From: an uncultured bacterium
GTDB taxonomy: Bacteria > Bacillota_I > Bacilli_A > RFN20 > CAG-826
Length of the DNA: 47,934 bases
NCBI GenBank assembly: GCA_949296775.1
Contig: CASFQA010000003.1
Location: forward strand, 1 to 47,934
Direction: 5' to 3'
The notes beneath the pieces were generated by a model. The model had not been told where the DNA came from. It made no database searches and saw nothing but the letters and a program-made list of their open reading frames with translations. This document shows positions 633 to 44,183 of the stretch, piece after piece (within the stretch, counting starts at the first letter, position 1; each line of letters opens with the position of its first letter). The translations under genes were made by a program, and so were the position numbers.

Positions 633-660
633 TTTATTTCGACGGGATTTTGTTTATACT
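633..660 (+). promoter_or_regulatory. Promoter of the 667 gene (leaderless)
   Basis: A -10 box TATACT (655-660) ends 6 nt before ATG 667, with a weak -35 TTTATT at 633-638 (16-nt spacer). No Shine-Dalgarno fits, so the transcript probably begins at or next to the start codon. Start site inferred. Confidence 0.5.
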
Positions 661-666
661 TCCGTT

Positions 667-2379
667 ATGGCAAAAGTCGGTTATCTTCCTTCCCCCGAGA
701 TGGGGGAAGAGGCGTTTAATGGGCTGCGGAACCATCCTTTATTCGAGCAAGAGGCTCCAGATCCTGTTGCCTGCTCTTCCTTAGACGAGGCGGTGAAGCG
801 GATTCAGAGTGGCGAGCTCGATTATATCCTCTTGCCCTCAAGGACCATCGATAACCACGCCAATTTGGATTTCCTCGGCCTCATCTCCCGCCTTTCGATC
901 GATAACCTGGTGGAGATTGGGCTTTTTACCTGCGAGATCGTCGGATTGGCCCGCACGGTGAGGAAAACCGGCACCGGCTCGCGGTATAAGAATAACCTCG
1001 CCGATAAAAAGGATGAGCCGGTCCTCTCTTTCTTAGAGGGCGAAGGATCGGATAGCCCCGAATCGATTGAGTTCCGCCTTTTCAAGAAGAATGAGTACAA
1101 ACGGTCGCTGCCTCTGCGGATCAAGAATTTCTTCGGCTCCCACCTGACCGCCTCTTTCCTAATCCGCATCTTCTCGGCTTTGGTCTCGGTGGGCATCACC
1201 GCCTTGCTCTTCCTCTCCACCTTCCTCCATATCCTCCCCGAGGCCAATGAGGACGTGATCTCGGCCATCGGGACGGTCTTAGTCGTCATCTTGAACGTGG
1301 TCTTAGGCATGTCGGGGTTCGATGAGGGGAATAAGAACTCGTTGATAACCGGTAAATGGATCTATTATTCCTTCGAGGAACAAAAAGACGGGCTTTCCTT
1401 CGTCCCTCGGGGGCTGAGGCTTCGGGTGGTCGACATCGCCTATAGCAACAAGGAGCTCTCGCTGAATTGCCATTTCGTCGGCGAGGATATCCTTTTCTTC
1501 TCCGCCGATTCCTTCGTCTTTGGCTTAGACCCCAAGGATCGGGTCGGCAAAGGGTTCTACCATTATTCCTCCAACGTCTCCAACAACTCCGGGAAGCGGG
1601 CTGAGGGGAACTGTCAGTTCGTCGGGCAATTGACCAAGAACGGCATCGTCACCATGGATGGCTGGTTCTTCTCCCGCGGCACCAAATTGAGCGGGCGGGT
1701 CCGTTTCTATCGGCTCAGCGAGAAAGACGCGGCCTTGCTCGATAAGTCGCGGAGCTTCTATTCGGTTAAGAAGCCGGCTGAGAAGATCGTCGGCATCTTC
1801 GGGTATCCGGAGTCAAACACCGATCTGGCCTTCCGGCTTTGCGTCAGGCAGGATAAAGACGCCTCCTTCAAGGATTACAAGAAGATCTATTTCGACGACT
1901 TTAAGACGATGTCCCAATATTTGTCCAAGGGCTATATCGATTATTGTTTGGTGCCATCGAAGAATCAGGGAACCCCCTTATCGGCCGTATCCTCTTTTGA
2001 GGGCTTTACCCCCATCAAGCGATTCGACAAACCGATTTTCTATTGTTTGGCCTCGAATCGCGATTTGACCAAAGAGATGTTGGAATCCCCCGACACCGTC
2101 TACATATCGAAGAAAGAAGCCTTGGATCAATGCAGCCTCTTCCTAATGGGCAAGAAGACCAAGGAAGCCAGCTCAACCTCCGAAGCCGCGAAAGCGTTAA
2201 GCGAGACCAATGCCGACTCCTCAACCGTCTCCGTCATCGTTTGCAATGCCGGGGCGGCCCAGAAATATGGGCTGAAATGGTATATGGTTGATGGCAAGGT
2301 CTTTAATCCGAGCGACGCCAAGGCGAATAACGTCACGGAGTTCAGCTTATATAAAGCCCCCGATAAGAAAGAGGAATAG
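667..2379 (+). CDS. Membrane protein: two prephenate-dehydratase-like lobes around a two-TM and beta-rich core
   Basis: A 570-residue protein of unknown function. Residues ~1-105 (start MAKVGYLPSPE; SLDEAVKRIQSGELDYILLP) and ~374-480 (IVGIFGYPES; YLSKGYIDYCLVPS) each resemble a lobe of the prephenate-dehydratase/PBP2 ligand-binding fold. Between them lie two TM helices (~160-190 and ~198-219) and a beta-rich stretch (~229-360) opening with GKWIYYSF. Two TM helices followed by a G-x-W-x-Y beta domain recall the S-2TMbeta/Cap15 nucleotide-receptor family, but this is only a by-eye resemblance. ATG 667 was chosen because the homologous lobe begins there and a -10 box ends 6 nt upstream; the longer reading frame would begin inside the terminator. 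It stands alone between the rRNA operon and the surface-protein locus. Not an enzyme of phenylalanine synthesis as far as can be judged: the dehydratase catalytic motifs and ACT domain are not seen. Confidence 0.85.
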   Translation: MAKVGYLPSPEMGEEAFNGLRNHPLFEQEAPDPVACSSLDEAVKRIQSGELDYILLPSRTIDNHANLDFLGLISRLSIDNLVEIGLFTCEIVGLARTVRKTGTGSRYKNNLADKKDEPVLSFLEGEGSDSPESIEFRLFKKNEYKRSLPLRIKNFFGSHLTASFLIRIFSALVSVGITALLFLSTFLHILPEANEDVISAIGTVLVVILNVVLGMSGFDEGNKNSLITGKWIYYSFEEQKDGLSFVPRGLRLRVVDIAYSNKELSLNCHFVGEDILFFSADSFVFGLDPKDRVGKGFYHYSSNVSNNSGKRAEGNCQFVGQLTKNGIVTMDGWFFSRGTKLSGRVRFYRLSEKDAALLDKSRSFYSVKKPAEKIVGIFGYPESNTDLAFRLCVRQDKDASFKDYKKIYFDDFKTMSQYLSKGYIDYCLVPSKNQGTPLSAVSSFEGFTPIKRFDKPIFYCLASNRDLTKEMLESPDTVYISKKEALDQCSLFLMGKKTKEASSTSEAAKALSETNADSSTVSVIVCNAGAAQKYGLKWYMVDGKVFNPSDAKANNVTEFSLYKAPDKKEE

Positions 2380-2391
2380 GGCCAAAGAAAA

Positions 2392-2412
2392 CCCCATCCG
2401 GGAAGGGATGGG
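2392..2412 (-). terminator. Terminator between convergent genes
   Basis: CCCCATCC (2392-2399) pairs with GGATGGGG (2405-2412). Read on the minus strand it is followed by TTTTCTTT, so it mainly ends the 2426 gene. The stem may also stop plus-strand transcription from the 667 gene. Confidence 0.75.
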
Positions 2413-2425
2413 GGAGTGCTCGTTT

Positions 2426-3259
2426 TTATCCTAATCTGCAAGCCCAATCTTCTAGTCCATAAGCAGTGGCGATATGATCGTAGCGCGCTGCGGTGTCGCG
2501 ACAAATTTCTTCTTCGCCTTCACAGGATTCGCTAGAGTCGAGATTTGAGAAATAAGCTCTGACGTCATATCCTAGCTTTAAATACGACTCTTTGGCGGCC
2601 TGCCACTTGTTTTTGATTTCGGTTCGATAGGCTTCAGTTACATTGGTAGGATCGCAAATACTATTGGTTCCGAGCAAGTTTGTGGTGTTGGCCCAAAGAT
2701 TTATCCTCTCATAATGATTGACGGTGGTCCAGTGTTCATCCGACCATAAGTCGATGCATACATTGCCATTATAAGATAAATAATCAGGAATAATCGCGCA
2801 ATTGCCCTTGATTTGACGGCTATATATATTGTTGGATTGACCCCAGCTGCTGTCCCACCCGATATGTCCCTGTGGGTTTTGCCTGGTGATAATCAAGTAA
2901 TCGTATGTTTCAGCAGTGGCAGGGATGGTTGCCTCGTATAAAGTTCGGCCGTTTTCTAGGGTTTTGATTGCTGTAGCGTAATCAGTCCAAACTTCCATTC
3001 CGGTTGCATTGTTGTAGTATCTAACGGCTGTTTTTGCTCCGCTATTCTGCCATCGGTTGTCATCTGTTGAGTCTGGAATTGAAAAGTACAACGTGTTGCC
3101 ACCGACCAAAATTCCCTCTTGCGGCCTCGGCAATTGCTGGGCGGCATTGATCGAATGGTTCTCCGGCGTATTGAGGAGAAGGCTCGAAGTGACGGTGACT
3201 CCCCCTAGGGCGAGGGTAGCCATTGAGACTAGGGTCAATAACTGAGTTTTCGCTTTCAT
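2426..3259 (-). CDS. Secreted protein, probable carbohydrate-binding
   Basis: 277 residues beginning MKAKTQLLTLVSMATLALGG, a signal peptide with a cleavable or anchoring hydrophobic core. The body (~55-190) is rich in W, Y, N and short strands (LVGGNTLYFSIPDS; YDYLIITRQNPQG), as in starch-binding modules. The tail carries a W..A...Y..L segment and AARYDHIATAYGLEDW near residues 258-273; similar RYDxIxxxYG tails recur, from memory, in secreted proteins of gut Bacilli. Start chosen at 3259 because AAGGAG precedes it at good spacing; the longer frame adds a basic, AT-rich leader. It is divergent from the CBM-containing 3755 gene and shares operator-like sites with it, so both probably respond to the same sugar signal. 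Function is inferred; no catalytic motif is seen. Confidence 0.8.
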   Translation of the reverse strand: MKAKTQLLTLVSMATLALGGVTVTSSLLLNTPENHSINAAQQLPRPQEGILVGGNTLYFSIPDSTDDNRWQNSGAKTAVRYYNNATGMEVWTDYATAIKTLENGRTLYEATIPATAETYDYLIITRQNPQGHIGWDSSWGQSNNIYSRQIKGNCAIIPDYLSYNGNVCIDLWSDEHWTTVNHYERINLWANTTNLLGTNSICDPTNVTEAYRTEIKNKWQAAKESYLKLGYDVRAYFSNLDSSESCEGEEEICRDTAARYDHIATAYGLEDWACRLG

Positions 3260-3754: not shown

Positions 3755-5143
3755 ATGAAACACAGAAATCTGATTCTAGGTTTCGCCTTAGCTCTTGGAA
3801 GCCTGGGAGCTATTGGGCTTGGAACCGCGGTCGGCAGCATCGGCACTCCTAATGAGGTTGAGGCGGCTGGCGAAAGCGAAGAAGAGGTCAATAAGCCTTA
3901 TTTCGAGATAGTCGGTGTACTTAAAGGCTATACTGGTTCGACCCAAGATTGGACTCCTGGTGCCGGGATTAAACTCAGCAAGTCCGAACAACGGGAAGAC
4001 GGACACACTTGGTATTATGCCGACATTTCCTTTAGGAAAGACGACCAGTTCAAGGTGGTTTACAATTCCTTTAATGACGATGGCACTATGTCAACTAATT
4101 GGATAGGGGCCAAGAAAGTTAATTTCAACGACGAGCAGATTTGGGGTTATGAAAACGATGGAAACTTCCACGTTGGGGCTGATGGGGATTACCGTTTCTT
4201 TATTCGCGACGATGCCTCCACGGCTTCTGGCGATGAAGGCAAGCAGGAGTTTTATGATATTGCCGATGCGGTAGCCGAATCTTACAAAGTAACCTTGGTG
4301 TTGCCAGATGAGCAAACCAAGGAAGATAAGGCCAGTAGCTTAGCTGAATATAACACCTCTTGGTTCAAGGTCGACGGCTATGTCAATCGCGGCTGGTATA
4401 CCGATTCTGATTTGAAAACCGAATACGTTCCTTCGGTCCCGACCGCTGATTTCACGTTGTACGGCAAATGGGAAACCGCTCCCGCCGATTTGACTGTTTA
4501 TTACGAGGGCGACTTCACCCACGCTTATATTTATTCGTCCGAAGCGTCCTATAGGAACAACACTTGGCCGGGCGTGGCGATGGAGAAACTTGACCGCGCT
4601 TGGGGCACCAATGTTTATAAGTTTGTCGTCGAAGGCGAATATGAAGCGAACATGATTATCTTCAATGACGGCGGCCAAGGAAAACAATCGGCTGATATCA
4701 CTTTGGCTAAAGAAACCGCCGTTTATAACGGTTGGCAAGATGATGAAGGCAACAAGAAAGGTCAGGTTGCCGCCGATTCCGATGACAAACTAGCCGCCCT
4801 CGACTTCATCACCGAGTTCGATACCCTCCGGAAAGATGGCTCGATTTGCTACCTAGTTAACGAAACCGGCCACGAAGATGCCCTCAACAGCATCATCGCC
4901 AAGTATGAAGCCATTCAAAACAAAGCCTTGGTCGATAGTCTTGAGGATGTTGGAGGAGATGCCGACATCGGCACGACTATGGCGATGCTGATCGGCAAGA
5001 AGAACAGCACCAGCGGCATCTACGGCGTCTATGACGTCAACTCCTTCGATACCGCCTGGATCGTCGTCTTGGCTCTGGCTGGGGCCTCGGTCTTGCTTGG
5101 CGGCGCCTTCTTCGTCCTCAAACGGAAGAAAGCCCGTAAGTAA
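3755..5143 (+). CDS. Membrane-anchored surface protein with starch-binding (CBM26-like) module
   Basis: 462 residues. Signal peptide/hydrophobic core at ~5-27. A beta-rich domain follows at ~40-135 (EIVGVLKGYTGSTQDWTPG), then an InlB B-repeat-like module at ~174-240 (VDGYVNRGWYTDSDLKTEY, ending LYGKW), then a CBM26-type starch-binding module at ~246-325 (AYIYSSEASYRNNTWPGV; MIIFNDGGQGKQSADI). A helical C-terminal segment leads to a TM helix at ~432-455 and the basic tail KRKKARK; no LPXTG is seen, so it is probably held by the membrane helix. ATG 3755 begins the signal peptide; AAAGGAG lies 14 nt upstream, an unusually long spacing. Likely to bind starch or maltodextrins outside the cell. The promoter carries an operator in its spacer, and the downstream terminator is at 5161. 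Confidence 0.85.
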   Translation: MKHRNLILGFALALGSLGAIGLGTAVGSIGTPNEVEAAGESEEEVNKPYFEIVGVLKGYTGSTQDWTPGAGIKLSKSEQREDGHTWYYADISFRKDDQFKVVYNSFNDDGTMSTNWIGAKKVNFNDEQIWGYENDGNFHVGADGDYRFFIRDDASTASGDEGKQEFYDIADAVAESYKVTLVLPDEQTKEDKASSLAEYNTSWFKVDGYVNRGWYTDSDLKTEYVPSVPTADFTLYGKWETAPADLTVYYEGDFTHAYIYSSEASYRNNTWPGVAMEKLDRAWGTNVYKFVVEGEYEANMIIFNDGGQGKQSADITLAKETAVYNGWQDDEGNKKGQVAADSDDKLAALDFITEFDTLRKDGSICYLVNETGHEDALNSIIAKYEAIQNKALVDSLEDVGGDADIGTTMAMLIGKKNSTSGIYGVYDVNSFDTAWIVVLALAGASVLLGGAFFVLKRKKARK

Positions 5144-5160: not shown

Positions 5161-5188
5161 GGCGTCATCTTCCCGGTGACGCCTTTTT
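5161..5188 (+). terminator. Terminator fused to the next promoter
   Basis: GGCGTCA (5161-5167) pairs with TGACGCC (5177-5183), then five T. The T-tract ends 2 nt before the -10 box of the next gene. Confidence 0.85.
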
Positions 5189-5196
5189 GCTATAAT
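5189..5196 (+). promoter_or_regulatory. Extended -10 promoter of the 5206 gene (leaderless)
   Basis: TGCTATAAT (extended -10 form) ends at 5196; ATG is at 5206, nine nt later. The -35 region is inside the terminator stem and has no good box, as is tolerated for extended -10 promoters. Confidence 0.7.
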
Positions 5197-5205: not shown

Positions 5206-6390
5206 ATGCAGCAGATTGGATTGGTCAAACTTCGGAGTACCCTCTCCGCCAGCGAGGCGAGCCTTAAAGGCGAAACCGCCGCTTTCTTGGATAAACTCAA
5301 CGCCGATAAACGGTTCGTCTTCGTCAAGCCTAAGGGCCAATACCCGACCCTTTTCTTGGTCTTGACCGGGGGATCGGAAGAATACTTCCTTGATTTATAT
5401 GCCAAGCATCGGCCACCTTATCTAATCATGCCGACGGGGGAGAGGAATTCCTTAGCCGCCTCGTTGGAGATCATGGCTTTCCTAAAAAGAAAAGGGCTCC
5501 CGGCCTATTTGCTATACGGATCCGATCAAGCCTCGATGCTGAAGGAAGCCGTTAACGCCTATAACGCCTTATCCTATCTTCGCTCGAGCCGGTTAGGGGT
5601 TATCGGCGGCTCCTCTTCTTGGCTTATCGCCTCGAAAGTCGATCCGAAGGCGGTCAAGGCCAAACTCGGGGTCAGCCTTATCAACGTCCCGATTAAGGAG
5701 GTGCTTGGCTATTACGATCAGCATTTGCTTTCCGATGAAGGGCTGCTTACGCGATTCGAAAGCAAGACCCGGCGAAAAGAGGAGCTGCGGGACGCCCTTT
5801 ATGTTTATGGGGCGTTGAAGAAGGCGGTGGCCGCCCATTCCCTCGATGGCTTGACCATGAAATGCTTCGATTTGATCTCCGCCCGGCAAGTCACTGCCTG
5901 CTTGGCCTTCGCTTTATTGAATGAAGAGGGGATCGTCGCCGGCTGCGAAGGGGATATCCCCTCAGCCCTGACCATGATGATCGCCTACGCTTTGACGGGA
6001 GCCGCCCCTTTCATGGCCAACCCGGCGAATATGGACGTCGAGGCCAAAGAGGCGGTCTATGCCCATTGCACCTTGCCTTTGTCGATGGTCAAGGATTATT
6101 CCCTAGCCACCCATTTCGAGTCCGGTTTGTCTTTCGCTTTGCGGGGGCAATTGGACAAAACCGAAATCACGGCCATCAAGTTAGCCCCGGATTTATCCTT
6201 CATCCGGGCGATCGAGGGGAGGATCATCGCCAATCCCGCCGAAGCGCGGCTATGCCGAACCCAGATAAAAGTCCGCTTCGAGGAGGATATCGTCCCGTTG
6301 CTGCAAAATCCTTTCGGCAACCATCTTATTTTCGCTTATGGGCGCCATAAGGCGGAAATTCAAACCTTGGCATCCTTTTTAGGCCTTTAA
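5206..6390 (+). CDS. L-fucose/L-arabinose isomerase-family protein
   Basis: 394 residues. The first half is a Rossmann-like lobe (LFLVLTGGSEEYF; SRLGVIGGSSSWLIASK) and the second half holds GIVAGCEGDIPSALTMMIAY and FMANPAN, typical of the isomerase-like family that also contains L-fucose isomerase-related proteins. Conserved acidic and His positions (CEGDIP; HCTLPLSM) are where such enzymes bind a divalent metal. It probably acts in the cytosol on a sugar or sugar phosphate; the substrate cannot be told from sequence. ATG 5206 was chosen because the TATAAT box ends 9 nt upstream; the longer frame starts inside the terminator. It is monocistronic, next to the starch-binding locus. Confidence 0.8.
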   Translation: MQQIGLVKLRSTLSASEASLKGETAAFLDKLNADKRFVFVKPKGQYPTLFLVLTGGSEEYFLDLYAKHRPPYLIMPTGERNSLAASLEIMAFLKRKGLPAYLLYGSDQASMLKEAVNAYNALSYLRSSRLGVIGGSSSWLIASKVDPKAVKAKLGVSLINVPIKEVLGYYDQHLLSDEGLLTRFESKTRRKEELRDALYVYGALKKAVAAHSLDGLTMKCFDLISARQVTACLAFALLNEEGIVAGCEGDIPSALTMMIAYALTGAAPFMANPANMDVEAKEAVYAHCTLPLSMVKDYSLATHFESGLSFALRGQLDKTEITAIKLAPDLSFIRAIEGRIIANPAEARLCRTQIKVRFEEDIVPLLQNPFGNHLIFAYGRHKAEIQTLASFLGL

Positions 6391-9130: not shown

Positions 9131-9139
9131 TGGTAAAAT
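9131..9139 (+). promoter_or_regulatory. Extended -10 promoter of recG (leaderless)
   Basis: TGGTAAAAT, an extended -10 element, ends at 9139. GTG 9147 is 7 nt further, so the mRNA probably starts at or beside the start codon. No -35 box at the right distance. Confidence 0.65.
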
Positions 9140-9146: not shown

Positions 9147-11141
9147 GTGAAGCTAACCTCCTCCCCCAAACTCAATTACCTCCTCGGCGAGATGGGCATC
9201 TTCACCCCCTTTGAGGTCATCAACCATCTGCCGAGGCGTTATGATTCCTTTTGCTACGCGACCCGGGAGGAGCTGATGTCTTTGGCGCCGAACCGCCGTT
9301 ATGTTCTTTTCGGGAAGATATTGACCCCGATCCAAGTGACGAGGTTTTCTAAAATCTCGGCCGCGAAATTCTATCTCCGCGACCAATACGGGGACGATTA
9401 CGCGATGGTGGCTTATAATCGGCCATATCTTGGCAAGACGTTCAAGGAGGGGGACGATGTGAGCGTCGCCGCCAGCTTCGATTCCAAACGGCACGAGCTT
9501 TCGGTCATCTCGATCAAGAAAGGGCGGATCGACGCCGCCCATCAGCTAGTCCCGGTCTATAGCTTGCCCGCCGATTACCCCAACCATAGCTTCGCCTCGC
9601 TGGTCAAAAAGAGCTTAGAGGCGCTTAAAGGGCAAATTTACGACCACGTCCCCTCTGTCTTCGCCCAAAAATACCGGCTCATTCACCGGGAAGAGGCCTA
9701 TTGGAAATGCCATTTCCCGGCGAGCCCGGCGGATTTAAACGCCGGGAGGCGGGTGCTCAAATACGAGGAAGCCTTGACCTTCACCTTGCATAACCTCCTC
9801 ATCAAAAGGGCCAATAAGGCGCTGATCAAAGGGGATCGGTTCGCCCTTGACCAGGGGAAAATCGATTCGTTCATCGCCAAGCTCCCCTTCGTCCTTACCG
9901 CCGATCAGAAGAAGGCGGTGGACGAATGCTTATCCGATATGGGCGGCGGGACCATCATGACCCGGCTCCTGCAAGGCGACGTCGGGACCGGCAAGACCCT
10001 GGTGGCGGCTATTTTGGCCTATGCCAACTTCACCCGGGGCGAGCAGACCGCCATCATGGCCCCGACCGAATCCTTGGCCAAGCAGCATCTAGGCTATTTC
10101 TCGGCCTTATTGGAGCCATTCGGGGTCAAGGTCGGCTATTTGACCGGGCTGATCAAGGGGAAGGAGCGGAAAGCGGTGCTGTCCGCCTTATCCGACGGGA
10201 GCCTCGACGTCTTGATCGGGACCCACGCCTTATTCGGGGCCGACGTCCTCTATCCCAATCTCGGCTTAGCCATCATCGACGAGCAGCATAAGTTCGGGGT
10301 CAACCAGCGGTCTAGGCTGCTCGGCAAAGGGGAGCGGGCCGATCTATTGCTGATGTCGGCCACCCCGATCCCCCGGACTTTGTCATTGACTTTGTATGGG
10401 GACCTCGATGTCTCCTCTTTGGCTCTTTTCCCCTTCAAGAAGCGGGAGGTCGAGACCAAGATCGTGCCCGCGAATTACAAACGGGCGGCCTTGACCATCG
10501 CCAAGGCTTTGCAGGAGGAAAGGCAAGTCTACGTCATCGCCCCCCGGGTCGAGGGGGAGGGGGACGAAAGCGTTCAAGCGGTATATGAGAAAATATCCGG
10601 CTTTTTCCCCGGCCTTTGCGCCCTTATCCACGGCCAGCTTGACGAGGAGAGCAAGGAAAAGGCCCTCGAGGAGTTCAAGTCCGGAAAGAAGCCGATCCTC
10701 GTCGCCACCTCGATCGTCGAGGTCGGGATCGACGTCAAGAAAGCCGGGATGATGTTCGTCTTCTCGCCCACCAGCTTCTCCTTGTCGTCCCTCCATCAGC
10801 TGAGGGGGAGAATCGGAAGGGATGGGCAAAAGGCGCATTTCTATATGTGCATCTCCGCCCCGAGCGAAGAGGACAAAGAGAAATTGGGCGTCTTAGTCGA
10901 TTCCTCCGACGGGTTTGAGATCGCCGAGGCCGACTTAAGGCTAAGGGGGCCGGGGACGCTCTCCGGCACCCGGCAAAGCGGCTTCCCGGAGTTTTCTTTC
11001 CTCTCCCCGGTCAACGACCTCAAGATCTTCGAATGCGCGCGCGCCGATGCCGCCTATATCATCGACCATCAAGGCGAGAAGCAATTCCTCTACCTTCTAA
11101 GCAAAGCCAAGGAGGCGATCGAGGGGGCGAGTTTGGCTTGA
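9147..11141 (+). CDS. recG: ATP-dependent DNA helicase RecG
   Basis: 664 residues (Bacillus 682). N-terminal wedge/OB region at ~1-240, then helicase lobes with Walker A GDVGTGKT, box II DEQHKFG, motif III SATPIPRTL and motif VI QLRGRIGRDG. RecG remodels stalled replication forks and branched DNA. GTG 9147 was chosen: the -10 box occupies 9134-9139, so the ATG at 9138 and the longer frame from 9051 would not be transcribed, and KLTSSPKLNYLLGEMGI aligns with the normal RecG start. In Bacillus recG is followed by fapR and the fatty-acid genes; here a small ORF and a lipoprotein follow. Confidence 0.95.
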   Translation: MKLTSSPKLNYLLGEMGIFTPFEVINHLPRRYDSFCYATREELMSLAPNRRYVLFGKILTPIQVTRFSKISAAKFYLRDQYGDDYAMVAYNRPYLGKTFKEGDDVSVAASFDSKRHELSVISIKKGRIDAAHQLVPVYSLPADYPNHSFASLVKKSLEALKGQIYDHVPSVFAQKYRLIHREEAYWKCHFPASPADLNAGRRVLKYEEALTFTLHNLLIKRANKALIKGDRFALDQGKIDSFIAKLPFVLTADQKKAVDECLSDMGGGTIMTRLLQGDVGTGKTLVAAILAYANFTRGEQTAIMAPTESLAKQHLGYFSALLEPFGVKVGYLTGLIKGKERKAVLSALSDGSLDVLIGTHALFGADVLYPNLGLAIIDEQHKFGVNQRSRLLGKGERADLLLMSATPIPRTLSLTLYGDLDVSSLALFPFKKREVETKIVPANYKRAALTIAKALQEERQVYVIAPRVEGEGDESVQAVYEKISGFFPGLCALIHGQLDEESKEKALEEFKSGKKPILVATSIVEVGIDVKKAGMMFVFSPTSFSLSSLHQLRGRIGRDGQKAHFYMCISAPSEEDKEKLGVLVDSSDGFEIAEADLRLRGPGTLSGTRQSGFPEFSFLSPVNDLKIFECARADAAYIIDHQGEKQFLYLLSKAKEAIEGASLA

Positions 11142-12255: not shown

Positions 12256-12289
12256 GGCTATAGCCTCTTAAGAGGCAATAGGGTATAGT
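12256..12289 (+). promoter_or_regulatory. rnc promoter with upstream palindromes (leaderless)
   Basis: -10 TATAGT (12284-12289) ends 7 nt before ATG 12297. Two overlapping perfect palindromes precede it: GGCTATAGCC (12256-12265) and GCCTCTTAAGAGGC (12263-12276). They could be an operator; no good -35 box is seen. Confidence 0.5.
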
Positions 12290-12296: not shown

Positions 12297-12992
12297 ATGA
12301 GCAGCGAGTATATGGCGCTTTACCGCCGGTTCAACATCAAGCCGAACAACGAGGAGCTTTACCGCCTGGCCTTTACCCATTCCTCCTATAACGGGATGGT
12401 GGGGACGAGGCATCAGGATTACGAACGGCTCGAGTTCCTCGGTGACTCGATCATCGGCTTCGTCACTTCCGAGCTCTGCTTCGCCTTCCATCCGGAGATG
12501 GAGCAAGGGCAGCTAAGCGTCCTCAAAGCCCAATTCATCCGTTCCTCCTCCGAAGCCCAGTATTGCCAAAAGCTCGGGCTTGGGCCTTATATCCGGGTGG
12601 GCCCCTCGTTTATGAAGGAAGCCAGCACCAACGAATCCTTGTTGGAAGACGTCTTCGAATCGTTCGTCGGGGCGGTTTACCTCGACCAAGGATTGGATTT
12701 TTGCTACAAGTTGGTTCGCTCGATTTTTGAGGAAGACATCAAGCACGCGACCATCAACGAAGCCATCAACCCCAAATCGAAGCTGCAGGAATGCATGCAG
12801 GCCGACTCCAAGGAATCGGTCACCTATCGGATCATCAAGGAGTCCGGGACCGCCTCGGCTAAAGTGTTCACCGCCGCGGTTTATTTCGAAGGCAATGAGA
12901 TCGGAAGAGGCGAAGGGCATAACAAGAAAGCGGCCGAAACCGCCGCCGCCCGGGACGCCCTCAACAAGATGGCGTTGCCAGAGAAGGAATAG
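12297..12992 (+). CDS. rnc: Ribonuclease III
   Basis: 231 residues, normal length. The catalytic domain holds the signature ERLEFLGDSIIGFVTSEL, with the metal-binding Glu/Asp, and NESLLEDVFESFVGAVYLD. The C-terminal double-stranded-RNA-binding domain starts near PKSKLQECMQ and ends GHNKKAAETAAARDAL. It cuts structured RNA in rRNA and mRNA maturation. It has no Shine-Dalgarno; the -10 box ends 7 nt before ATG, so the message is probably leaderless. ftsY follows after 5 nt; smc, which lies between them in Bacillus, is absent. Confidence 0.96.
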   Translation: MSSEYMALYRRFNIKPNNEELYRLAFTHSSYNGMVGTRHQDYERLEFLGDSIIGFVTSELCFAFHPEMEQGQLSVLKAQFIRSSSEAQYCQKLGLGPYIRVGPSFMKEASTNESLLEDVFESFVGAVYLDQGLDFCYKLVRSIFEEDIKHATINEAINPKSKLQECMQADSKESVTYRIIKESGTASAKVFTAAVYFEGNEIGRGEGHNKKAAETAAARDALNKMALPEKE

Positions 12993-21122: not shown

Positions 21123-21206
21123 GCGCTTAAAGCGCTACGCAGGCTCCGCTGCCGAGTCACACGGGCATGAACCTGAAGAGAATTGGCTTATAGGAGGTAA
21201 CAGACA
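21123..21206 (+). ncRNA. Candidate L19 (rplS) autoregulatory leader
   Basis: The ~84-nt untranslated leader begins with a GCGCTT/AAGCGC stem and then has GCAGGCTCCGCTGC followed by GGGCATGAACCTG, in which CAGG (21140-21143) can pair with CCTG (21172-21175). AGGAGGT comes just before ATG 21207. Bacilli carry an L19 leader RNA family at this place; the match here is by position and general form, not by a covariance search. Confidence 0.45.
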
Positions 21207-21712: not shown

Positions 21713-21718
21713 TATAAT
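21713..21718 (+). promoter_or_regulatory. -10 box of the signal peptidase operon (leaderless)
   Basis: Perfect TATAAT ending 7 nt before ATG 21726. No SD. The -35 region (about 21690) is poor. Confidence 0.65.
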
Positions 21719-21725: not shown

Positions 21726-22583
21726 ATGGCAAATGAGCCGGAGAACCGTTTAACCTCGACCCCGACGGTCGCGAAGAAAAAGAAGCGTTGGTGGATCATC
21801 GTCCTCGATATCGTTTTGCTCGTCGTTTTCCTACTCGCTTTGGCGGTGTCGGCTAACGTCATCTACCTCACTTCGGCTTATGGCGAGCCGTTTTACGTCA
21901 ACGGGGCGTCGATGTACCCGACCCTTAATAAGAACGGCTATCGGCTGGAGGACGGGGAATACGTCCCTTTGACCTGGAACGATTCCCATAACAAGGAAGG
22001 GGATATCGTCGATTATGGCTGGGCGCGGTCGGGGAGCACCGGCAATTGGCGTTCCACTTTGTCGCGTTTCGACATCGTCATCACCTATTTCCCGACCGAT
22101 TACCTCGATCCCGACTCCTTGGTTTTGTCTCCCTCCGCCTCGCTTAAGATCAAGCGGGTCATCGGGTTGCCGGGGGAGAAGGTAAAGCTCGAGTATGACG
22201 AAAGCAATACCGCTTGGGGCAAGACCACCATCACTTACGAAGACGGGACCAGCGAGGTTTTGCCCAACCTTTATGACGAAGAGGATTTCCCGCCTTTGCC
22301 CAATGGGTATCAATACGAGGGGATCGATCGGAATCGGCTTACGGAATGCGAGTTAGGGGACGATGAGTATTTCTTAGTCGGCGACAATCGGGCCGCCTCC
22401 CATTCCGAGGATTCCCGTTCCCCGAAGATCGGGCCGATCAAAGGCGATTTCATCCAAGGGAAAGCCTATTTGCTGACCGGGCAAAGGGAATTGGTTCTAG
22501 AAGATGGCAAACTGACCCCCAAATTCTCTTGGTCGGGCCTTTCCTTCCCTTGGGATTACGTGAAATTGGATGAGTGGTTATGA
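21726..22583 (+). CDS. lepB: Type I signal peptidase
   Basis: 285 residues, longer than the ~190 of Bacillus SipS because of an insert between the Ser and Lys boxes and another before box E. One TM helix (~22-45, IVLDIVLLVVFLLALAVSA). Catalytic Ser in NGASMYPTL; catalytic Lys in IKRVIGLPGE; box E GDNRAASHSEDSR. It cleaves secretory signal peptides outside the membrane. ATG 21726 directly follows a TATAAT box, so leaderless; upstream in-frame codons lie before the promoter. Overlaps rbgA by 4 nt (ATGA). The position next to rbgA and rnhB matches some Bacilli. Confidence 0.94.
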   Translation: MANEPENRLTSTPTVAKKKKRWWIIVLDIVLLVVFLLALAVSANVIYLTSAYGEPFYVNGASMYPTLNKNGYRLEDGEYVPLTWNDSHNKEGDIVDYGWARSGSTGNWRSTLSRFDIVITYFPTDYLDPDSLVLSPSASLKIKRVIGLPGEKVKLEYDESNTAWGKTTITYEDGTSEVLPNLYDEEDFPPLPNGYQYEGIDRNRLTECELGDDEYFLVGDNRAASHSEDSRSPKIGPIKGDFIQGKAYLLTGQRELVLEDGKLTPKFSWSGLSFPWDYVKLDEWL

Positions 22584-24063: not shown

Positions 24064-24089
24064 GGGTACTTATTCATTAGGAGGTACCC
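24064..24089 (+). promoter_or_regulatory. Hairpin enclosing the dprA ribosome binding site
   Basis: GGGTAC (24064-24069) can pair with GTACCC (24084-24089). The SD AGGAGG (24079-24084) lies in the loop/stem edge, right before ATG 24091. It may reduce dprA translation; a weak case. Confidence 0.35.
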
Positions 24090-24983: not shown

Positions 24984-25018
24984 GGGGCTTTGACAAGGGA
25001 AAAAGCCCCCTCTATATT
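24984..25018 (+). promoter_or_regulatory. topA promoter within an inverted repeat (leaderless)
   Basis: Perfect -35 TTGACA (24990-24995), 17-nt spacer, -10 TATATT (25013-25018); ATG 25028 is 9 nt after the -10 box. An inverted repeat GGGGCTTT (24984-24991) / AAAGCCCC (25002-25009) overlaps the -35 and spacer with a 10-nt loop. Confidence 0.85.
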
Positions 25019-25027: not shown

Positions 25028-27160
25028 ATGAAATTAGTCATCGTCGAATCTCCGAAAAAATCCGAAACCATTGGCCGTTACCTCGGCCCGGACTTCAAAG
25101 TCTTGGCCAGCGAAGGCCATATCCGCGACCTTTCAACTCGGGGGCGCGGCGGGTTAGGCATCGATATCGAAAAGGATTTCCAAGCCGATTGGGTCATCCC
25201 GGAAAAGAAGAAAGCGGTGGTGGCCAAACTCAGCCGGGCCGCCAAGGAAGCGGAGGAAGTTTACCTCGCCACCGACCCTGACCGGGAAGGGGAGGCGATT
25301 TCTTGGCACTTGGCCAAGGTCCTGCGCCTGCCGGTCGACACCACCAAAAGGCTGCAATTCCACGAAATCACCAAGCCGGCCATCACCGCCGCCATGGCCG
25401 AGCCGAAGCATATCGACATGAATTTGGTCTCGGCCCAAGAAACCCGGAGGCTGGAGGATCGGATCATCGGCTTCCAGGTCTCGACTTTGCTTCAGCGCAA
25501 GATCGGCGTCAAAAGCGCCGGCCGCGTCCAGTCCTCGACCTTGGGGATGATCGTCGAAAGGCAAAAGGCCATCGACGCCTTCGTCCCCGTCGAATATTGG
25601 ACCATCGCGGTCGAGGTTGAAATCTCGGGCAAGATCTATACCGCCAACCTGACCAAAGTCGATGGGAAGCCATTTAAATGCTCGACCCAAGCCGAGGCTG
25701 AGGCGATCGTCTCGCGGATCCCCGAGCATTTGATCGTCTCCTCGCTTAGCAAAGCCGTCAAGTCGATTTCCCCGCGCCCGCCTTTCACGACCTCCTCGAT
25801 GCAGCAGGAAGCCTATTCGAAATACAAATTCTCCAACGCCCGGACCCAGTCGGTGGCCCAGCGGCTATATGAAGGCTTGGAAATCAACGGCGAGCACGTC
25901 GGCCTTATCACCTATATGCGTACCGACTCGACGAGGATTTCCCCGGAGTTCTTCTCTAAGCACGCCGTCCCCTTCATCACCGAGACTTATGGCAAGGAAT
26001 ACCTCGGGGTATTGCGGGCTGGCAAAGAGGGGAGGAACATCCAAGACGCCCACGAGGCCATCCGCCCGACCGGAACCCATCGGACCCCTGAGGTGGTGGC
26101 GAAATTCGTCAATAGCGACGAGGCCAAGCTTTATCGGCTTATCTATTGCCGGGCCATGGCTTCGTTGATGGCGATGAAGAAGGTGGAGCGCACCTCGGTC
26201 ATCCTTTCCGGCAACGGGCTTGATTTCTCCCTTTCCGGTTCCCGGACCCTTTTCAAGGGGTTCGAAGTCGTCTATGGCGAATTCGAGGACGAGAAGGACG
26301 AGGGCGATTTGCCCCCGTTAACCGAAGGAGGGATCGTCGAGGTGAAGAATCGGCTGCCCGAGCAGAAATTCACCAAACCGGAGCCGCCTTATAACGAAGC
26401 CTCGATCGTCAAGGCGATGGAGGAGAAGGGGATCGGCCGCCCGTCGACGTACGCTTCGACCATCGAGACCCTGATCAAACGAAAATACGTGACTTCCGCC
26501 AAAGGGGTGCTGACCCCCACCGAAGACGGCATCAAGACCGTCACCGTCCTCAATAAGTACTTCCCGGACATCGTCTCGACCTCCTATACCGCCGAAATGG
26601 AAAACAAACTGGACCGAGTCGAGGAAGGGAAAGAGACTTTCCTCGAGGCCATGAACGAGTTCTATGAGCCTTTTTCCGCCAAGTTCTCATTGGCGAAGGA
26701 GAAGATGTATAAGGAGCCGCCGGTCTATACCGGGGAGCTTTGCCCGGTGTGCGGGAAGCCTCTAGTCGTTAAGGCCAACCGGAAGGGCGAGCAATTCGTC
26801 GGCTGCTCTGGCTATCCCGAATGCATCTATATCAAGAAGGAAGCCAAGAAGGAAGATGAGCCGACCGGGGAACTATGCCCGGACTGCGGCGCTCCGCTAG
26901 TTTACAAATTGTCGCGGAAAGGGGAGAAGTTCATCGGTTGCTCCGCCTTCCCCAAATGCCGTTACACCGCCTCGGTTGACGGCATCCCCAACAAGAAAAA
27001 GGAAAAGGCGGTCTATACCGAAAAGGATTACGTCAAGAAGTGCCCCAGCTGCGGAACCGGCTACCTCGTCGTGAAAAAAGGGCGCAAAACCTCCTTCTTA
27101 GGGTGCACCAATTTCCCCAAGTGCCGTTATCACGAATGGCTGGACAACAAGAAAAAATGA
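25028..27160 (+). CDS. topA: DNA topoisomerase I
   Basis: 710 residues, usual for type IA (Bacillus 691). Toprim LVIVESPKKSETIGRYLG and DPDREGEAISWHL; active-site Tyr in YMRTDSTRIS; C-terminal three zinc ribbons (CPVCGKP..., CPDCGAP..., CPSCGTG..., each closing with C-x5-6-C). It relaxes negative supercoils. ATG 25028 is set by the promoter: the -10 box ends 9 nt before, and there is no SD. Overlaps trmFO by 4 nt. Confidence 0.97.
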   Translation: MKLVIVESPKKSETIGRYLGPDFKVLASEGHIRDLSTRGRGGLGIDIEKDFQADWVIPEKKKAVVAKLSRAAKEAEEVYLATDPDREGEAISWHLAKVLRLPVDTTKRLQFHEITKPAITAAMAEPKHIDMNLVSAQETRRLEDRIIGFQVSTLLQRKIGVKSAGRVQSSTLGMIVERQKAIDAFVPVEYWTIAVEVEISGKIYTANLTKVDGKPFKCSTQAEAEAIVSRIPEHLIVSSLSKAVKSISPRPPFTTSSMQQEAYSKYKFSNARTQSVAQRLYEGLEINGEHVGLITYMRTDSTRISPEFFSKHAVPFITETYGKEYLGVLRAGKEGRNIQDAHEAIRPTGTHRTPEVVAKFVNSDEAKLYRLIYCRAMASLMAMKKVERTSVILSGNGLDFSLSGSRTLFKGFEVVYGEFEDEKDEGDLPPLTEGGIVEVKNRLPEQKFTKPEPPYNEASIVKAMEEKGIGRPSTYASTIETLIKRKYVTSAKGVLTPTEDGIKTVTVLNKYFPDIVSTSYTAEMENKLDRVEEGKETFLEAMNEFYEPFSAKFSLAKEKMYKEPPVYTGELCPVCGKPLVVKANRKGEQFVGCSGYPECIYIKKEAKKEDEPTGELCPDCGAPLVYKLSRKGEKFIGCSAFPKCRYTASVDGIPNKKKEKAVYTEKDYVKKCPSCGTGYLVVKKGRKTSFLGCTNFPKCRYHEWLDNKKK

Positions 27161-32809: not shown

Positions 32810-32833
32810 TTATTGTCTCAAGAAAGGTATAAT
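32805..32833 (+). promoter_or_regulatory. uppS promoter (leaderless)
   Basis: -10 TATAAT (32828-32833), 10 nt before ATG 32844. A weak -35 TTTTTA (32805-32810) lies in the U-tract of the terminator, at 17-nt spacing. Confidence 0.6.
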
Positions 32834-32843: not shown

Positions 32844-33572
32844 ATGAAAAGCGAATTCCATTTAAGCAAGCCATTGTCCCATATCGCCTTCATCATGGAT
32901 GGGAACGGACGGTGGGCCAAAAGCCATGGCCTACCCCGTTATTTGGGACACAAGAGGGCTTGCGAACGGCTGATTGATATTTACGACGCTTGCCGGGAAC
33001 AGGGGATCAAGGTCGTTTCCTTTTTCGCCTTCTCGACCGAAAACTGGAATCGTCCGCAGGATGAAATCGATCATCTTATGGATTACCTGGAGGATTTCTT
33101 CCACCGGGAAATCAATTACCTGAGGAAGAACGGGTCGAAGATCATTATTTCCGGCGATTTGTCGAGAATCCGGGAAAAGACCCGAAAAGTCTGCTTGGAA
33201 GCGATCGAGCTGACCAAGGACAATGACGCCAACATCCTTAACGTCTGCCTGAATTACGGCGGGCGCGATGAGATCGTGCGGGCGGCGAAGAGAATCGCCC
33301 TCGATTGCCACGAAGGCCGCCTTGATTTAAAAGACCTCGACGAAAAGCGCTTCGCTTCTTATCTTTATACCGCTTCCTTGCCGGACGTCGATTTGCTTAT
33401 TCGAACCTCGGGGGAGCAGCGGATATCCAATTTCCTTCTCTATGAGATAGCTTACGCCGAGATTATCTTCACCTCGACTAAGTGGCCGGATTTCGACAAA
33501 GAGGCATTGCTTGAATGCTTACGGGAATTCGAAGGGCGCCATCGCCGCTTCGGGGGGCTTGACAATGCCTAA
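32844..33572 (+). CDS. uppS: Undecaprenyl (isoprenyl) diphosphate synthase
   Basis: 242 residues. AFIMDGNGRWAKSHGLPR holds the catalytic Asp and diphosphate-binding loop; then FFAFSTENWNRPQDE, LNYGGRDEI and LLIRTSGEQRISNF. It makes the C55 carrier for wall polymers. ATG 32844 is preferred over TTG 32838; it lies 10 nt after the -10 box. cdsA starts inside its last 8 nt. Confidence 0.96.
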   Translation: MKSEFHLSKPLSHIAFIMDGNGRWAKSHGLPRYLGHKRACERLIDIYDACREQGIKVVSFFAFSTENWNRPQDEIDHLMDYLEDFFHREINYLRKNGSKIIISGDLSRIREKTRKVCLEAIELTKDNDANILNVCLNYGGRDEIVRAAKRIALDCHEGRLDLKDLDEKRFASYLYTASLPDVDLLIRTSGEQRISNFLLYEIAYAEIIFTSTKWPDFDKEALLECLREFEGRHRRFGGLDNA

Positions 33573-34548: not shown

Positions 34549-34550
34549 TT

Positions 34551-35708: not shown

Positions 35709-37069
35709 TGGAAATACTGTTGGCTATTCTTGAGATAATCATCATCCTCGGGGTGTTGATTTCCATCCATGAGGCCGGCCATCTCTCGATGGCTAAGGCC
35801 TTTGGGGTATATTGCTTCGAATATTCGATCGGCTTTGGGCCGGCGATCATTCACCGGAAAAGGAAGAAGGGGGAGACCTATTTCTCGTTAAGGGCGATTC
35901 CGCTTGGCGGTTATGTCTCGATGTATGGCGAGGATGAAGGCGCCCCGGAAGGTTATGATGCCCCCGATCCCTCACGGTCGCTCAACGCCATCGCCAAATG
36001 GAAGAAATGCATCGTTTTGGTGGCCGGCGTCTTCCTCAACTTCGTTTTGGGGTTGGTCCTCATCTTCGTCAGCGATATCGCCTTCCCGCAGTATTACTCA
36101 GCTTATCAAAGCGCGCTCGTCGATGACCCGGAGACCACGGTCCTCTATACCCCGGTTTCCCTTTCCGGGGAGCCGTTATCGGTTTTGGAATCCTACATCG
36201 AGGATCATCCGGAAGACGGCTTTGCGGCCGAGGAGTATTATCTTGACATCCCTTTGATTTTAAACGGCGGGACTTCGGTTTTGCTTTCCGACGAGGTCTA
36301 TATCTCCAACAGTTCGGAACCCTACGTGGCCCTATATACCCCCTCGACTTTATTGAAGAATCACGATCTCGCCTCCTCGATCTCCTTTTACCTCGCGAGC
36401 GAAGAGGTGGGCGAGGACATGAAGGAACAAGGCATCGATCGCCTCCCCGACCCCGAGAAGCTTTCCGCCGGCGAATCCTATTTGGTCTCCAATGCCGATC
36501 CCTCGACGGTCATTACCGTCAATTTGACCATGCTGCCGATCAATGAGGACGGCCTATTCGCGGAAAACCTAGAGAAGCGGGTGACCTTGCCTTTTAAATT
36601 CACGATCGAATCTAGCGAGGACGGGCAGAAGCTGTCCTTGCCGGGTTTTGAGATCCAAGCGATCAAGCAATGGCTCGGCTGGAATGGGGCTTGGCGGCAA
36701 TGGGCGAGCGACGTCCCCGAGGCCTGCGGGGCCATCGTCAAAGGCTTCGCCTCCTTATTCTCCCCCGGCGGCTTCCAGAATCTTTCCGGCATCGTCGGGA
36801 TGACCGCCGCCCTTCCCAACATCCAAGCGACCGGCGGGGTGGCGATGATCTTCTATTTCGCCGGGTTGCTATCGATTAACCTCGCTTTCTTCAATCTTTT
36901 GCCTTTCCCCGGCCTTGACGGATGGGCTTTGTTGGTCACCGTCATCGAAGGGGTCAGCAAGCGCAAAGTGCCGGCCAAAGCCCAAACCATTATGTCGATT
37001 ATCGGGATGGTGTTGCTTTTCGGCTTGATGATCGCCGTCACCGTCAAGGACATCATTCAGCTGTTCTAG
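35708..37069 (+). CDS. rseP: Site-2 protease RseP/RasP (M50), PDZ not evident
   Basis: 453 residues (RasP 422). Zinc motif HEAGH in SIHEAGHLSMAKAFG, TM helices at the N-terminus, ~95-120 and C-terminal, and the third metal ligand motif NLLPFPGLDGW. Cleaves anti-sigma factors or remnant signal peptides in the membrane. The ~220-residue extracytoplasmic part between helices 2 and 3 lacks an obvious PDZ carboxylate loop. Starts in the dxr stop; polC follows 9 nt later. proS, which lies between them in Bacillus, is missing. Confidence 0.93.
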   Translation: MEILLAILEIIIILGVLISIHEAGHLSMAKAFGVYCFEYSIGFGPAIIHRKRKKGETYFSLRAIPLGGYVSMYGEDEGAPEGYDAPDPSRSLNAIAKWKKCIVLVAGVFLNFVLGLVLIFVSDIAFPQYYSAYQSALVDDPETTVLYTPVSLSGEPLSVLESYIEDHPEDGFAAEEYYLDIPLILNGGTSVLLSDEVYISNSSEPYVALYTPSTLLKNHDLASSISFYLASEEVGEDMKEQGIDRLPDPEKLSAGESYLVSNADPSTVITVNLTMLPINEDGLFAENLEKRVTLPFKFTIESSEDGQKLSLPGFEIQAIKQWLGWNGAWRQWASDVPEACGAIVKGFASLFSPGGFQNLSGIVGMTAALPNIQATGGVAMIFYFAGLLSINLAFFNLLPFPGLDGWALLVTVIEGVSKRKVPAKAQTIMSIIGMVLLFGLMIAVTVKDIIQLF

Positions 37070-37078
37070 GAGGGATAT

Positions 37079-42272: not shown

Positions 42273-42282
42273 CTGATTACCG

Positions 42283-42306
42283 CCTATGGCTCGACCATAG
42301 GTTTTT
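42283..42306 (+). terminator. Terminator of tRNA-Arg
   Basis: CCTATGG (42283-42289) pairs with CCATAGG (42295-42301), then five T's. Confidence 0.88.
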
Positions 42307-42329
42307 ATTTCCGCGCAAACTAAAAATAA

Positions 42330-42347
42330 AAGGCGCAGAAGCGCCTT
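42330..42347 (-). terminator. Terminator of the PII-like gene
   Basis: AAGGCGC/GCGCCTT stem with a 4-nt loop; on the minus strand it is followed by TTTATTTTT. Confidence 0.8.
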
Positions 42348-42370
42348 CCTTTTTTAAAATCTAAGCTTGT

Positions 42371-42703: not shown

Positions 42704-42781
42704 ATACGGTCTCCTAACGGCGAGGGTAATATATCATAGGTTGTCCTGCGGTAAAGTAGGGAAATTAAGAGGTTAAGAAAT

Positions 42782-43285
42782 ATGGTAATCATTCACGTTA
42801 AGGATTATGGGGAATTGAAGCTCTCCCTTGACTGGGAGGCGGCGCCAAATACCTGCGCCAATTTCGTTTTCGTGGCTCGCCAGGGGCTTTACGAAGGAAC
42901 GGTCTTCCATCGGATCATTAAAAATTTCATGATTCAAGGCGGAGCTTTGGAATTCGTTCAGAAAAAACTCAACTATTCGATTAAAGGTGAGTTCAAGGCC
43001 AATGGTGTCGATAATCCTTTAAAGCATGAAAGAGGGGTCATATCCATGGCTCGGACCAGCGACCCGGATTCGGCCACCACTCAGTTTTTCATCGTCCATA
43101 AGACCTCGCCGCATCTTGATGGGCAATACGCGGCCTTTGGTAAATTAGAAGACGGCTTTGAGGTATTGGATAAGCTAGCCAGCTTGCCGACCAATGCCTA
43201 CGATATGCCGCATCCGTTGCCGCTTATTGAAAAGGTCGAGGTCATCGACGAACCCGAACGGGAAGTCGAGACTATCTCAGCATAG
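42782..43285 (+). CDS. Cyclophilin-type peptidyl-prolyl isomerase
   Basis: 167 residues, single domain. YEGTVFHRIIKNFMIQGG has the catalytic Arg; then GVISMARTSDPDSATTQFFI and HLDGQYAAFGKLEDGFEVLD. Cytosolic (no signal). It catalyses proline cis-trans isomerisation in folding. AGAGG precedes ATG 42782. Its end overlaps the convergent lysR gene by 9 nt. Confidence 0.94.
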   Translation: MVIIHVKDYGELKLSLDWEAAPNTCANFVFVARQGLYEGTVFHRIIKNFMIQGGALEFVQKKLNYSIKGEFKANGVDNPLKHERGVISMARTSDPDSATTQFFIVHKTSPHLDGQYAAFGKLEDGFEVLDKLASLPTNAYDMPHPLPLIEKVEVIDEPEREVETISA

Positions 43286-44149
43286 TGAGCGGACGATTTC
43301 CAAATATGCTTTGGCGGCTTGGCTGAGGCTATTTTCGTCGCGGTATATTAGGTCGAGCCGGTTTTCAATCGGTGGATGCAAAGGGACAAAGGCCAATTCT
43401 TTTTCCGCCTTGGCCAGTCCCTCGAGGCCGAGGGCATATCCAAGTCCTTCCTGAACGAGCAAAGTAGCGTTGAACAGGAGATTATATTTCGCCACGATTT
43501 TGAGCCCGGTTAGTTTTCCTCCGAAAAAGTTATAGATCGGCGAGGCGGGTCTAAGCGATTGCAGCGAGGTTATCAATGGCTTCCCTTTCAATTGCTCGGC
43601 CGTTAGGTAGCTGGCAGAGGCTAAAGCGTCGTCGGCTTTCATGTAGACGCCCCAGTGGTCGTGAAGCGGCAAGTGGAGGAAACCATAACGCTGGAACTCG
43701 CCTCGATCGATGACGACCCCGAAATCCAATAAGCCCTTATCTAATTTATCCAAGACGAAGGTTGAGTCTCCCGAGTGGATGGTAAAGGTCACGTGCGAAT
43801 GCTTTTCCCTAAGTATTTCCGCGGCTTTGGCTAAGGTTTTAAGAGAAGCCGATTCCCCAGCTCCAATGGTGATTTCCCCTTCGATATTGTCTTCGCGGGT
43901 TTGTAATTCCTTATTGGTCTTTTTTTCCAATTCGATCAGTTCAGCCGCCCGCAAAGCCAATATTTTTCCTTTTTCCGTCAGCGAAATCGTGCGGGCGCCG
44001 CGGATGAATAATTGGCAATTTAGCTCAGCCTCGAGATTCTGCATTTGTTTTGATAGGCTCGGTTGGGTGATGAAAAGCCGTTCAGCTGCTTTCGTTATGC
44101 TTTTCTCTTCGCAAATAGTGAGGAAGTAATGTAATTGCCGGAGTTCCAT
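43277..44149 (-). CDS. LysR-family transcriptional regulator
   Basis: 290 residues. N-terminal winged HTH: LRQLHYFLTICEEKSITKAA, QPSLSKQMQNLEAELNCQLF; then the LysR substrate-binding domain from ~90 (ITIGAGESASLKTLAKAA). The effector is unknown. It is divergent from the acetyltransferase/flavodoxin pair, its likely target. The -10 box ends 6 nt before ATG, so the message is probably leaderless; no SD. Confidence 0.93.
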   Translation of the reverse strand: MELRQLHYFLTICEEKSITKAAERLFITQPSLSKQMQNLEAELNCQLFIRGARTISLTEKGKILALRAAELIELEKKTNKELQTREDNIEGEITIGAGESASLKTLAKAAEILREKHSHVTFTIHSGDSTFVLDKLDKGLLDFGVVIDRGEFQRYGFLHLPLHDHWGVYMKADDALASASYLTAEQLKGKPLITSLQSLRPASPIYNFFGGKLTGLKIVAKYNLLFNATLLVQEGLGYALGLEGLAKAEKELAFVPLHPPIENRLDLIYRDENSLSQAAKAYLEIVRSLC

Positions 44150-44155
44150 AATTTT

Positions 44156-44183
44156 AGTTTACCATAACGAAAGACTATGACAA
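44156..44183 (-). promoter_or_regulatory. lysR promoter (leaderless)
   Basis: On the minus strand: -35 TTGTCA (44183-44178), 16-nt spacer, -10 TAAACT (44161-44156), then 6 nt to ATG 44149. The 88-bp gap to the acetyltransferase gene would hold the regulator's operator; no clear T-N11-A dyad was fixed. Confidence 0.65.

Follow-up and report, generated by a model that had tools for sequence, protein, structure and literature searches.

Leaderless genes are already on record in the Firmicutes. Zheng et al. (2011) reported leaderless (TA-led) genes in 56 of 209 Firmicutes genomes, chiefly in Lactobacillales and Mycoplasma, at an average of 4.2% of genes (2.4–16.6%), and predicted an average of 18.3% of genes in five Mycoplasma genomes (PMC3160421; same study cited by PMC4014445). 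Mapped 5′ ends gave 8.6% leaderless mRNAs in Streptococcus pyogenes and 9% in S. agalactiae and S. pneumoniae (PMC6431027); reports on other species put the enterococci below 1% (PMC7724050) and count 15 potentially leaderless genes in Clostridioides difficile (PMC7438776). Here we analyse 47,934 nucleotides (nt) of DNA from an uncultured bacterium of the Bacillota (the window; positions 1–47934 of contig CASFQA010000003.1 in a 1.52 Mb, 10-contig assembly), in which eight genes carry a promoter −10 box 6–10 nt 5′ of the start codon. On the evidence of this arrangement in the organism's own genome and in its relatives, many first genes of transcription units very probably have leaders of 0–3 nt and initiate translation independently of a Shine–Dalgarno (SD) site.

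−10 boxes 6–10 nt before start codons

We surveyed 448 kb of the organism's own genome (the window and 400 kb more; G+C content about 52%). A hexamer model blind to promoters and SD sites called 388 genes, of which 387 were used for upstream analysis; as the caller uses neither kind of information, a peak in box position is not built in. Genes were classed as first (197), mid (31, with a codirectional gap of 26–60 nt) or internal (159), and a strict box was defined as TATAAT with at most one mismatch and TA...T fixed. Such a box stood at 6–10 nt in 29 of the first genes, 5 of the mid genes (34/228 for both) and 2 of the internal genes, or 36/387 overall; 1,000 column shuffles of the first genes averaged 3.8 and never exceeded 10, against the 29 observed. 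The SD 4-mer was present in 2 of the 34 box genes versus 95 of 194 other first or mid genes (Fisher test, 8e-7). Correspondingly, the 131 SD-less first or mid genes had a strict box at 6–10 nt in 32 cases and at 16–30 nt in 11, whereas the 97 SD-bearing ones had it at 16–30 nt in 27 and at 6–10 nt in 2. A peak at 6–10 nt, rarity of SD sites in box genes and restriction to promoter-proximal genes are what characterizes TA-led genes, and as a sequence pattern they are secure in this genome. The strict counts are probably too low, because the caller misplaced three of the eight window starts (recG, lysR and the gene starting at 667).

The share of such genes was estimated with a mixture model of three parts (SD, box at 6–10 nt, neither), whose outputs are model estimates from sequence and not mapped 5′ ends. 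With a box matrix trained on boxes 20–45 nt upstream, the near-box share of first and mid genes was 0.23 with fixed and 0.28 with refined starts, as compared with 0.02–0.07 and 0.01–0.09, respectively, in seven control windows; a generic matrix gave 0.23 at 6–10 nt versus 0.00–0.04 in eight other windows. Taken over all 387 genes, the modelled share comes to about 14%. It was 0.44 in divergently transcribed genes, which are the most certain to be first (n = 86; bootstrap 5–95%, 0.34–0.54), and 0.13 in codirectional genes with a gap of more than 25 nt (n = 136; six of the 228 genes are in neither group), and the modelled SD share was 0.43 in both groups. Both sides exceeded 0.5 in 9 of 43 divergent pairs, with 19/43 on each side; this about equals the expectation under independence, and we rejected the idea that leaderless promoters form a distinct paired arrangement in divergent genes. 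In 8 of the 43 pairs only 36–67 nt separate the start codons, barely more than two overlapping promoters would occupy.

The eight window sites (Table 1) were all found where an earlier note on this DNA had placed them, and the −35 elements and spacers that it gave for topA and lysR were likewise correct; the other six genes have a best −35 match of only 2–3 of 6. The TG-N extension that it described for recG and the gene at 5206 is present in both, and also in lysR. Its statement that none of the eight has an SD site holds for seven, with no AGGA, GGAG or GAGG in positions −18 to −3; in the 5206 gene GAGG immediately follows the box, a motif lost in a close relative (L093). The genes that it set in contrast (rpsP, rplS, dprA, rpsB, polC and lemA) do carry AGGAG- or GGAGG-type sites, and those of rpsP, rplS, dprA and rpsB are retained in close relatives. 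Pfam backs the identities of recG, rnc, the signal peptidase, topA, uppS and lysR and assigns the 667 product a prephenate-dehydratase-like C-terminal domain (PDT, residues 376–539); the 5206 product had no Pfam match.

The window starts with the end of a 23S gene, then a 5S gene. Immediately 3′ of the latter lies the 667 gene, with a hydrophobic stretch (by eye) and its own near-leaderless promoter. Two adjoining opposite-strand genes, 3755–5143 and 2426–3259, have SD sites and signal-peptide-like starts (by eye) and sit at the lowest-GC end of the window.

Table 1. Promoter elements and contrasting SD sites in the window
Feature	Sequence	Positions	Strand	Distance or spacing	Gene or remark
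−10 box	TATACT	655..660	+	6 nt 5′ of ATG 667	gene 667-2379
extended −10	TGC-TATAAT	5188..5196	+	9 nt 5′ of ATG 5206	gene 5206-6390
extended −10	TGG-TAAAAT	9131..9139	+	7 nt 5′ of GTG 9147	recG 9147-11141
−10 box	TATAGT	12284..12289	+	7 nt 5′ of ATG 12297	rnc 12297-12992
−10 box	TATAAT	21713..21718	+	7 nt 5′ of ATG 21726	signal peptidase S26, 21726-22583
−35 of topA	TTGACA	24990..24995	+	spacer 17	
−10 box	TATATT	25013..25018	+	9 nt 5′ of ATG 25028	topA 25028-27160
−10 box	TATAAT	32828..32833	+	10 nt 5′ of ATG 32844	uppS 32844-33572
−35 of lysR	TTGTCA	44178..44183	-	spacer 16	
−10 box	TAAACT	44156..44161	-	6 nt 5′ of ATG 44149	LysR regulator 44149-43277
SD of rplS (contrast)	AGGAGG	21192..21197	+	start 21207	SD present in relatives compared
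SD of dprA (contrast)	AGGAGG	24079..24084	+	start 24091	kept in L022, L024
SD of polC (contrast)	AGGAGG	37068..37073	+	start 37079	

Promoter character and the likely first transcribed base

As a set, the boxes have the features of sigma-A promoters. Among 67 modelled genes, a TTGACA-like hexamer (at least 4/6) lies at a spacer of 15–19 nt in 29, versus 10, 14, 8 and 18 at four control spacings, and TG-N precedes the box in 11, versus 1–7 at seven neighbouring offsets; single sites often lack a good −35. The boxes are found at 6, 7, 8, 9 and 10 nt in 17, 13, 10, 18 and 9 of these genes. Those at 9 nt have a purine at −3 in 15 of 18 cases and those at 8 nt a purine at −2 in 9 of 10. Among genes with boxes at 9–10 nt, 19 of 27 have the triplet RYT (purine, pyrimidine, T) directly 5′ of the start codon, as compared with 8 of 40 at 6–8 nt and 14 of 107 SD first genes.

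The same triplet recurs throughout the genus. TANAAT-N6-RYT-ATG, with the box at 9 nt, has 336 matches in 31 genus genomes and 25 in the reversed control; moving the box to 16 nt leaves 51 RYT matches. At 9 nt, YYT gives 40 (reversed 52) and RYV, which admits three bases where RYT admits one, 247 (reversed 56). RYT came out ahead of the reversed pattern, of YYT and of the form with the box at 16 nt in 31 of 31 genomes. This excess indicates that the purine 7 nt 3′ of the box is likely the first base of the message. Leaders would then measure 0 or about 3 nt, and messages would start with AUG or RYU-AUG; in Mesoplasma florum, start sites are reported mostly 6–7 nt from the −10 box (PMC7745072). 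The purine preferences at −3 or −2 point, for boxes at 8–10 nt, to a leader of 2–3 nt and not to none.

In the organism's own genome, strict boxes at 8–10 nt have U at −1 in 21 of 22 cases and those at 6–7 nt in 6 of 12; in eleven related genomes (G151 excluded) the split is gone (24/43 versus 25/43). With only half of the own-genome boxes at 6–7 nt showing it and no split in the relatives, we rejected a uniform U at −1 for all box genes. The genus-wide counts for boxes at 9 nt do display this preference (336 for RYT, with one base at −1, and 247 for RYV, with three). It is conceivable, if rather doubtful, that the genus makes two discrete kinds of message, leaderless AUG and a 3-nt 5′-RYU-AUG leader, the mini-leader being itself a translation signal. 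RNA polymerase would in that case fix the first purine, whereas the U at −1 would be under selection for translation, possibly through extended codon–anticodon pairing with the initiator tRNA, should such pairing act here.

Conservation and distribution across the clade

Boxes and their distances are retained in the closest relatives while neighbouring bases vary. Distances in the own genome and in L093 are 6 and 6 nt for the 667 gene, 9 and 9 for the 5206 gene, 7 and 6 for recG, and 7 and 8 for rnc; the signal peptidase box stands at 7 nt in the own genome and in L022, L024 and L023, and that of uppS at 10 nt in the own genome, L022 and L024. For lysR no close orthologue was found among the relative loci compared. 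The recG gene of L093 has TACAAT at 6 nt, lacks an ATG at the position of ATG 9138 and starts with GTG, which argues for GTG 9147 as the recG start. For five window genes, every orthologue counted had kept its box (G008, 5/5; G023, 3/3; G013, 2/2), and no new box had arisen in 17, 7 and 2 box-less genes, respectively; the G008 count leaves out two rows with a different start codon. The condition under which the earlier note would have been refuted, −10-to-ATG distances with no genome-wide peak at 6–10 nt, did not arise.

We compared the best-matching topA loci of the genus, 23 of 25 of which contain the start. Their leaders lack the SD 4-mer in 22 of 23 (exception G016) and have a −35 of at least 4/6 and a box within 30 nt in 22 of 23 (exception L048), and, where the N-terminus is included, the product starts with MKLVI from the same codon. 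Outside the genus, an SD site precedes topA in 3 of 8 best loci from the rest of the organism's own family (f1), 2 of 3 from family f5, 2 of 2 from f3 and 14 of 19 class rows.

A clade scan with the generic-matrix model (40–100 kb per genome) gave shares at 6–10 nt of 0.24 and 0.27 in genus mates and 0.06–0.26 in eight other f1 genomes, with weak support in G151, G103 and G124 (likelihood ratio 3.3–3.8). Within the same order the share was 0.22 in f5, 0.23 in f3 and 0.00–0.04 in f7, f4, f2 and f6 (one genome each); outside it, 0 in f17, 0.06 in f18, 0 in f19 and 0.17 in f24 (one genome). Divergent genes alone gave 0.30 in the other f1 genomes (n = 90), 0.29 in f5 and f3 (n = 40) and 0.02 in f7, f4, f2 and f6 (n = 56), and, outside the order, 0.00 in f17–f19 (n = 40) and 0.11 in f24 (n = 18; bootstrap 0.00–0.29). 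The trait is therefore seen in f1 and two more families of the order and not in the single genomes of four others, a patchiness that suggests more than one gain or loss among the sampled families. The RYT pattern at 9 nt is weaker outside the genus, at 785:366 over its control in f1 (74 genomes), 174:140 in f3 (15) and 83:58 in f5 (11), with smaller sets giving 33:24 in f2 (2 genomes), 39:36 in f4 (4), 17:6 in f6 (1) and 52:33 in f7 (3).

A fixed motif, TATAAT-N6-ATGAA, was compared with its reversed form in 159 class genomes and gave 260:63 in f24 (14 genomes), 65:18 in f21 (7), 98:35 in f1 (16) and 185:176 in f16 (20); the own genome (G000) has one match. It also exceeded the control in f17 (63:26, 6 genomes) and f19 (97:37, 5 genomes), where the gene-based model gave no share (G051, G064), and we consider it of little use for mapping the trait over the class. 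That f24 is a further lineage with strict leaderless genes is only suggested. Examples of single f24 genomes run 17:0, 27:1 and 20:0, but 4:4 and 22:20 in two.

Interpretation and comparison with known systems

The reading that we favour is that a large share of the genes that come first in their transcription units would be transcribed from sigma-A type promoters, with the start point on the A of ATG or 2–3 nt 5′ of it, leaving a leader of 0–3 nt without an SD site. Such messages would be translated by the leaderless route, from a 5′-terminal AUG and probably on 70S ribosomes, and operon-internal and many other first genes would use SD sites pairing with an intact anti-SD. What the sequences show is where the boxes lie, their promoter character, how far they are conserved and how they are spread over the clade; from this we infer the actual 5′ ends, the route of translation and any regulation. 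For the SD-led genes both partners are present: in the own-genome sample, 106 of the 159 internal genes and 97 of the 228 first or mid genes carry the SD 4-mer, and the 16S tail in L020 has the anti-SD GGATCACCTCCTTTCT intact.

In the Mollicutes, bS21 without bS1 (mostly) has been linked to leaderless translation (PMC4014445). S21 was found in 39 of 41 genomes. A search for rpsA gave no match over the cut-off in the 41 genomes, a cut-off passed by only 2 of 14 controls; the matches listed were partial except in G018, and the own genome had only two short ones. One 381-amino-acid S1-like frame lies in G018:C23. Multi-domain ribosomal protein S1 may be absent across the order, a weak indication given how few controls passed. 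We rejected S1 loss as the cause, as the search result is alike in families with and without the trait, itself a weak test; on the same comparison, S21 without S1 would be permissive at most.

Three other accounts of the boxes have to be weighed. One takes the boxes as promoters and has translation begin at codons further downstream, so that the leaders would be ordinary ones; the simplicity of a gene caller whose starts needed correction by eye or by relatives in three of eight cases lends this some colour. Against it, start codons are conserved together with the boxes in every orthologue counted above, an SD-bearing in-frame start within 120 nt downstream exists in 1 of 34 box genes (versus 4 of 59 SD first, 8 of 135 other first and 16 of 159 internal genes), and topA keeps its MKLVI start across the genus; we consider such misplacement very improbable. 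A TA-rich element might instead be an AU-rich translation signal within a longer leader, as AT-rich stretches 5′ of start codons are described in some SD-less bacteria (PMC9581028) and the internal genes of an AT-rich family member (G057) also receive box weight, 0.28. Yet the box is nearly absent from the internal genes of the own genome, the −35 and TG elements stand, as a set, at promoter spacing with a purine at the start-site position, and topA retains its TTGACA-like −35 almost throughout the genus, which makes a pure translation signal highly improbable. The proximal promoters could also yield minor side transcripts, the main ones starting further upstream with SD-independent leaders. 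Some upstream promoters do exist, as the 11 SD-less genes with a box at 16–30 nt attest, but among the SD-less genes the remaining 5-nt bins out to 50 nt contain at most 7/131 each, versus 32 at 6–10 nt, and in five divergent pairs in which both genes have a modelled box the start codons are only 42–67 nt apart; we hold this account to be extremely improbable.

Several observations nonetheless weigh against near-leaderless initiation at the boxes as the favoured reading, among them the G057 internal genes just mentioned. In the own genome, both signals, SD 4-mer and strict box, are missing from 99 of the 228 first or mid genes. The family member G151 has the box in almost none of its genes (1/32). 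Of the three genes that could be compared in G004, topA has lost the 6–10 nt box, and a gene counted as box-less has one there. Across the genus, the topA box lies 9–10 nt from ATG in only 5 of 23 leaders and at 11–25 nt in 18, of which 17 are SD-less; strict leaderlessness is not kept for topA. These mostly SD-less leaders imply that short leaders of several nt without an SD site are also tolerated.

If SD-independent initiation on leaders of 0–3 nt is right, a large share of the transcription units in an uncultured Bacillota genus do without a ribosome-binding site at their start, and several families of the same order, which seem to lack the trait, offer a natural comparison for the gain and loss of leaderless initiation. 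It would also bear on gene-start calling in metagenome assemblies. In Escherichia coli, kasugamycin spares leaderless messages (PMC5230787), and by that analogy the organism might respond differently to drugs directed solely at leadered initiation.

A search of open-licence PMC literature, only in part aimed at the clade by name, turned up no work on its leaderless genes, and the part of the Zheng et al. study on leaderless Firmicutes does not name it (PMC3160421). What appears new is the clade, the uneven occurrence in neighbouring families and the RYU-AUG mini-leader; leaderless genes in Bacilli were already known. The split between near boxes and SD sites supports the earlier note's proposal that the organism initiates in two ways and that leaderless or near-leaderless messages are frequent among first genes; the proposal needs amending where boxes at 8–10 nt predict a short leader. 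Its judgement that this is unusual among Bacilli is half right: the streptococci and Mycoplasma cited above are precedents (PMC6431027, PMC3160421), and the enterococci stay below 1% (PMC7724050).

The arrangement resembles the Firmicutes set of Zheng et al. in having a TA-like signal some 10 bp 5′ of the start codon, and the modelled all-gene share, a sequence-based figure, falls inside the range given there, near its top (PMC3160421). As in the pyogenic streptococci, also Bacilli, where 81% of the S. pyogenes set is common to S. agalactiae (PMC6431027), boxes are kept between relatives; the mapped streptococcal figures refer to mRNAs, whereas those here are predictions of 44% for 86 divergent and 13% for 136 codirectional genes. 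S21, reported for the Mollicutes (PMC4014445), is present in nearly all the genomes searched here; the organism differs from them in its G+C content of about 52%, its genome of 1.5 Mb and the presence of uppS. Deinococcus-Thermus and Actinobacteria likewise combine SD and leaderless genes within one genome; these other phyla reach higher average shares, 39.4% and 19.2% of genes, and their signal is TAnnnT, whereas the strict criterion used here required a near-complete TATAAT (PMC3160421).

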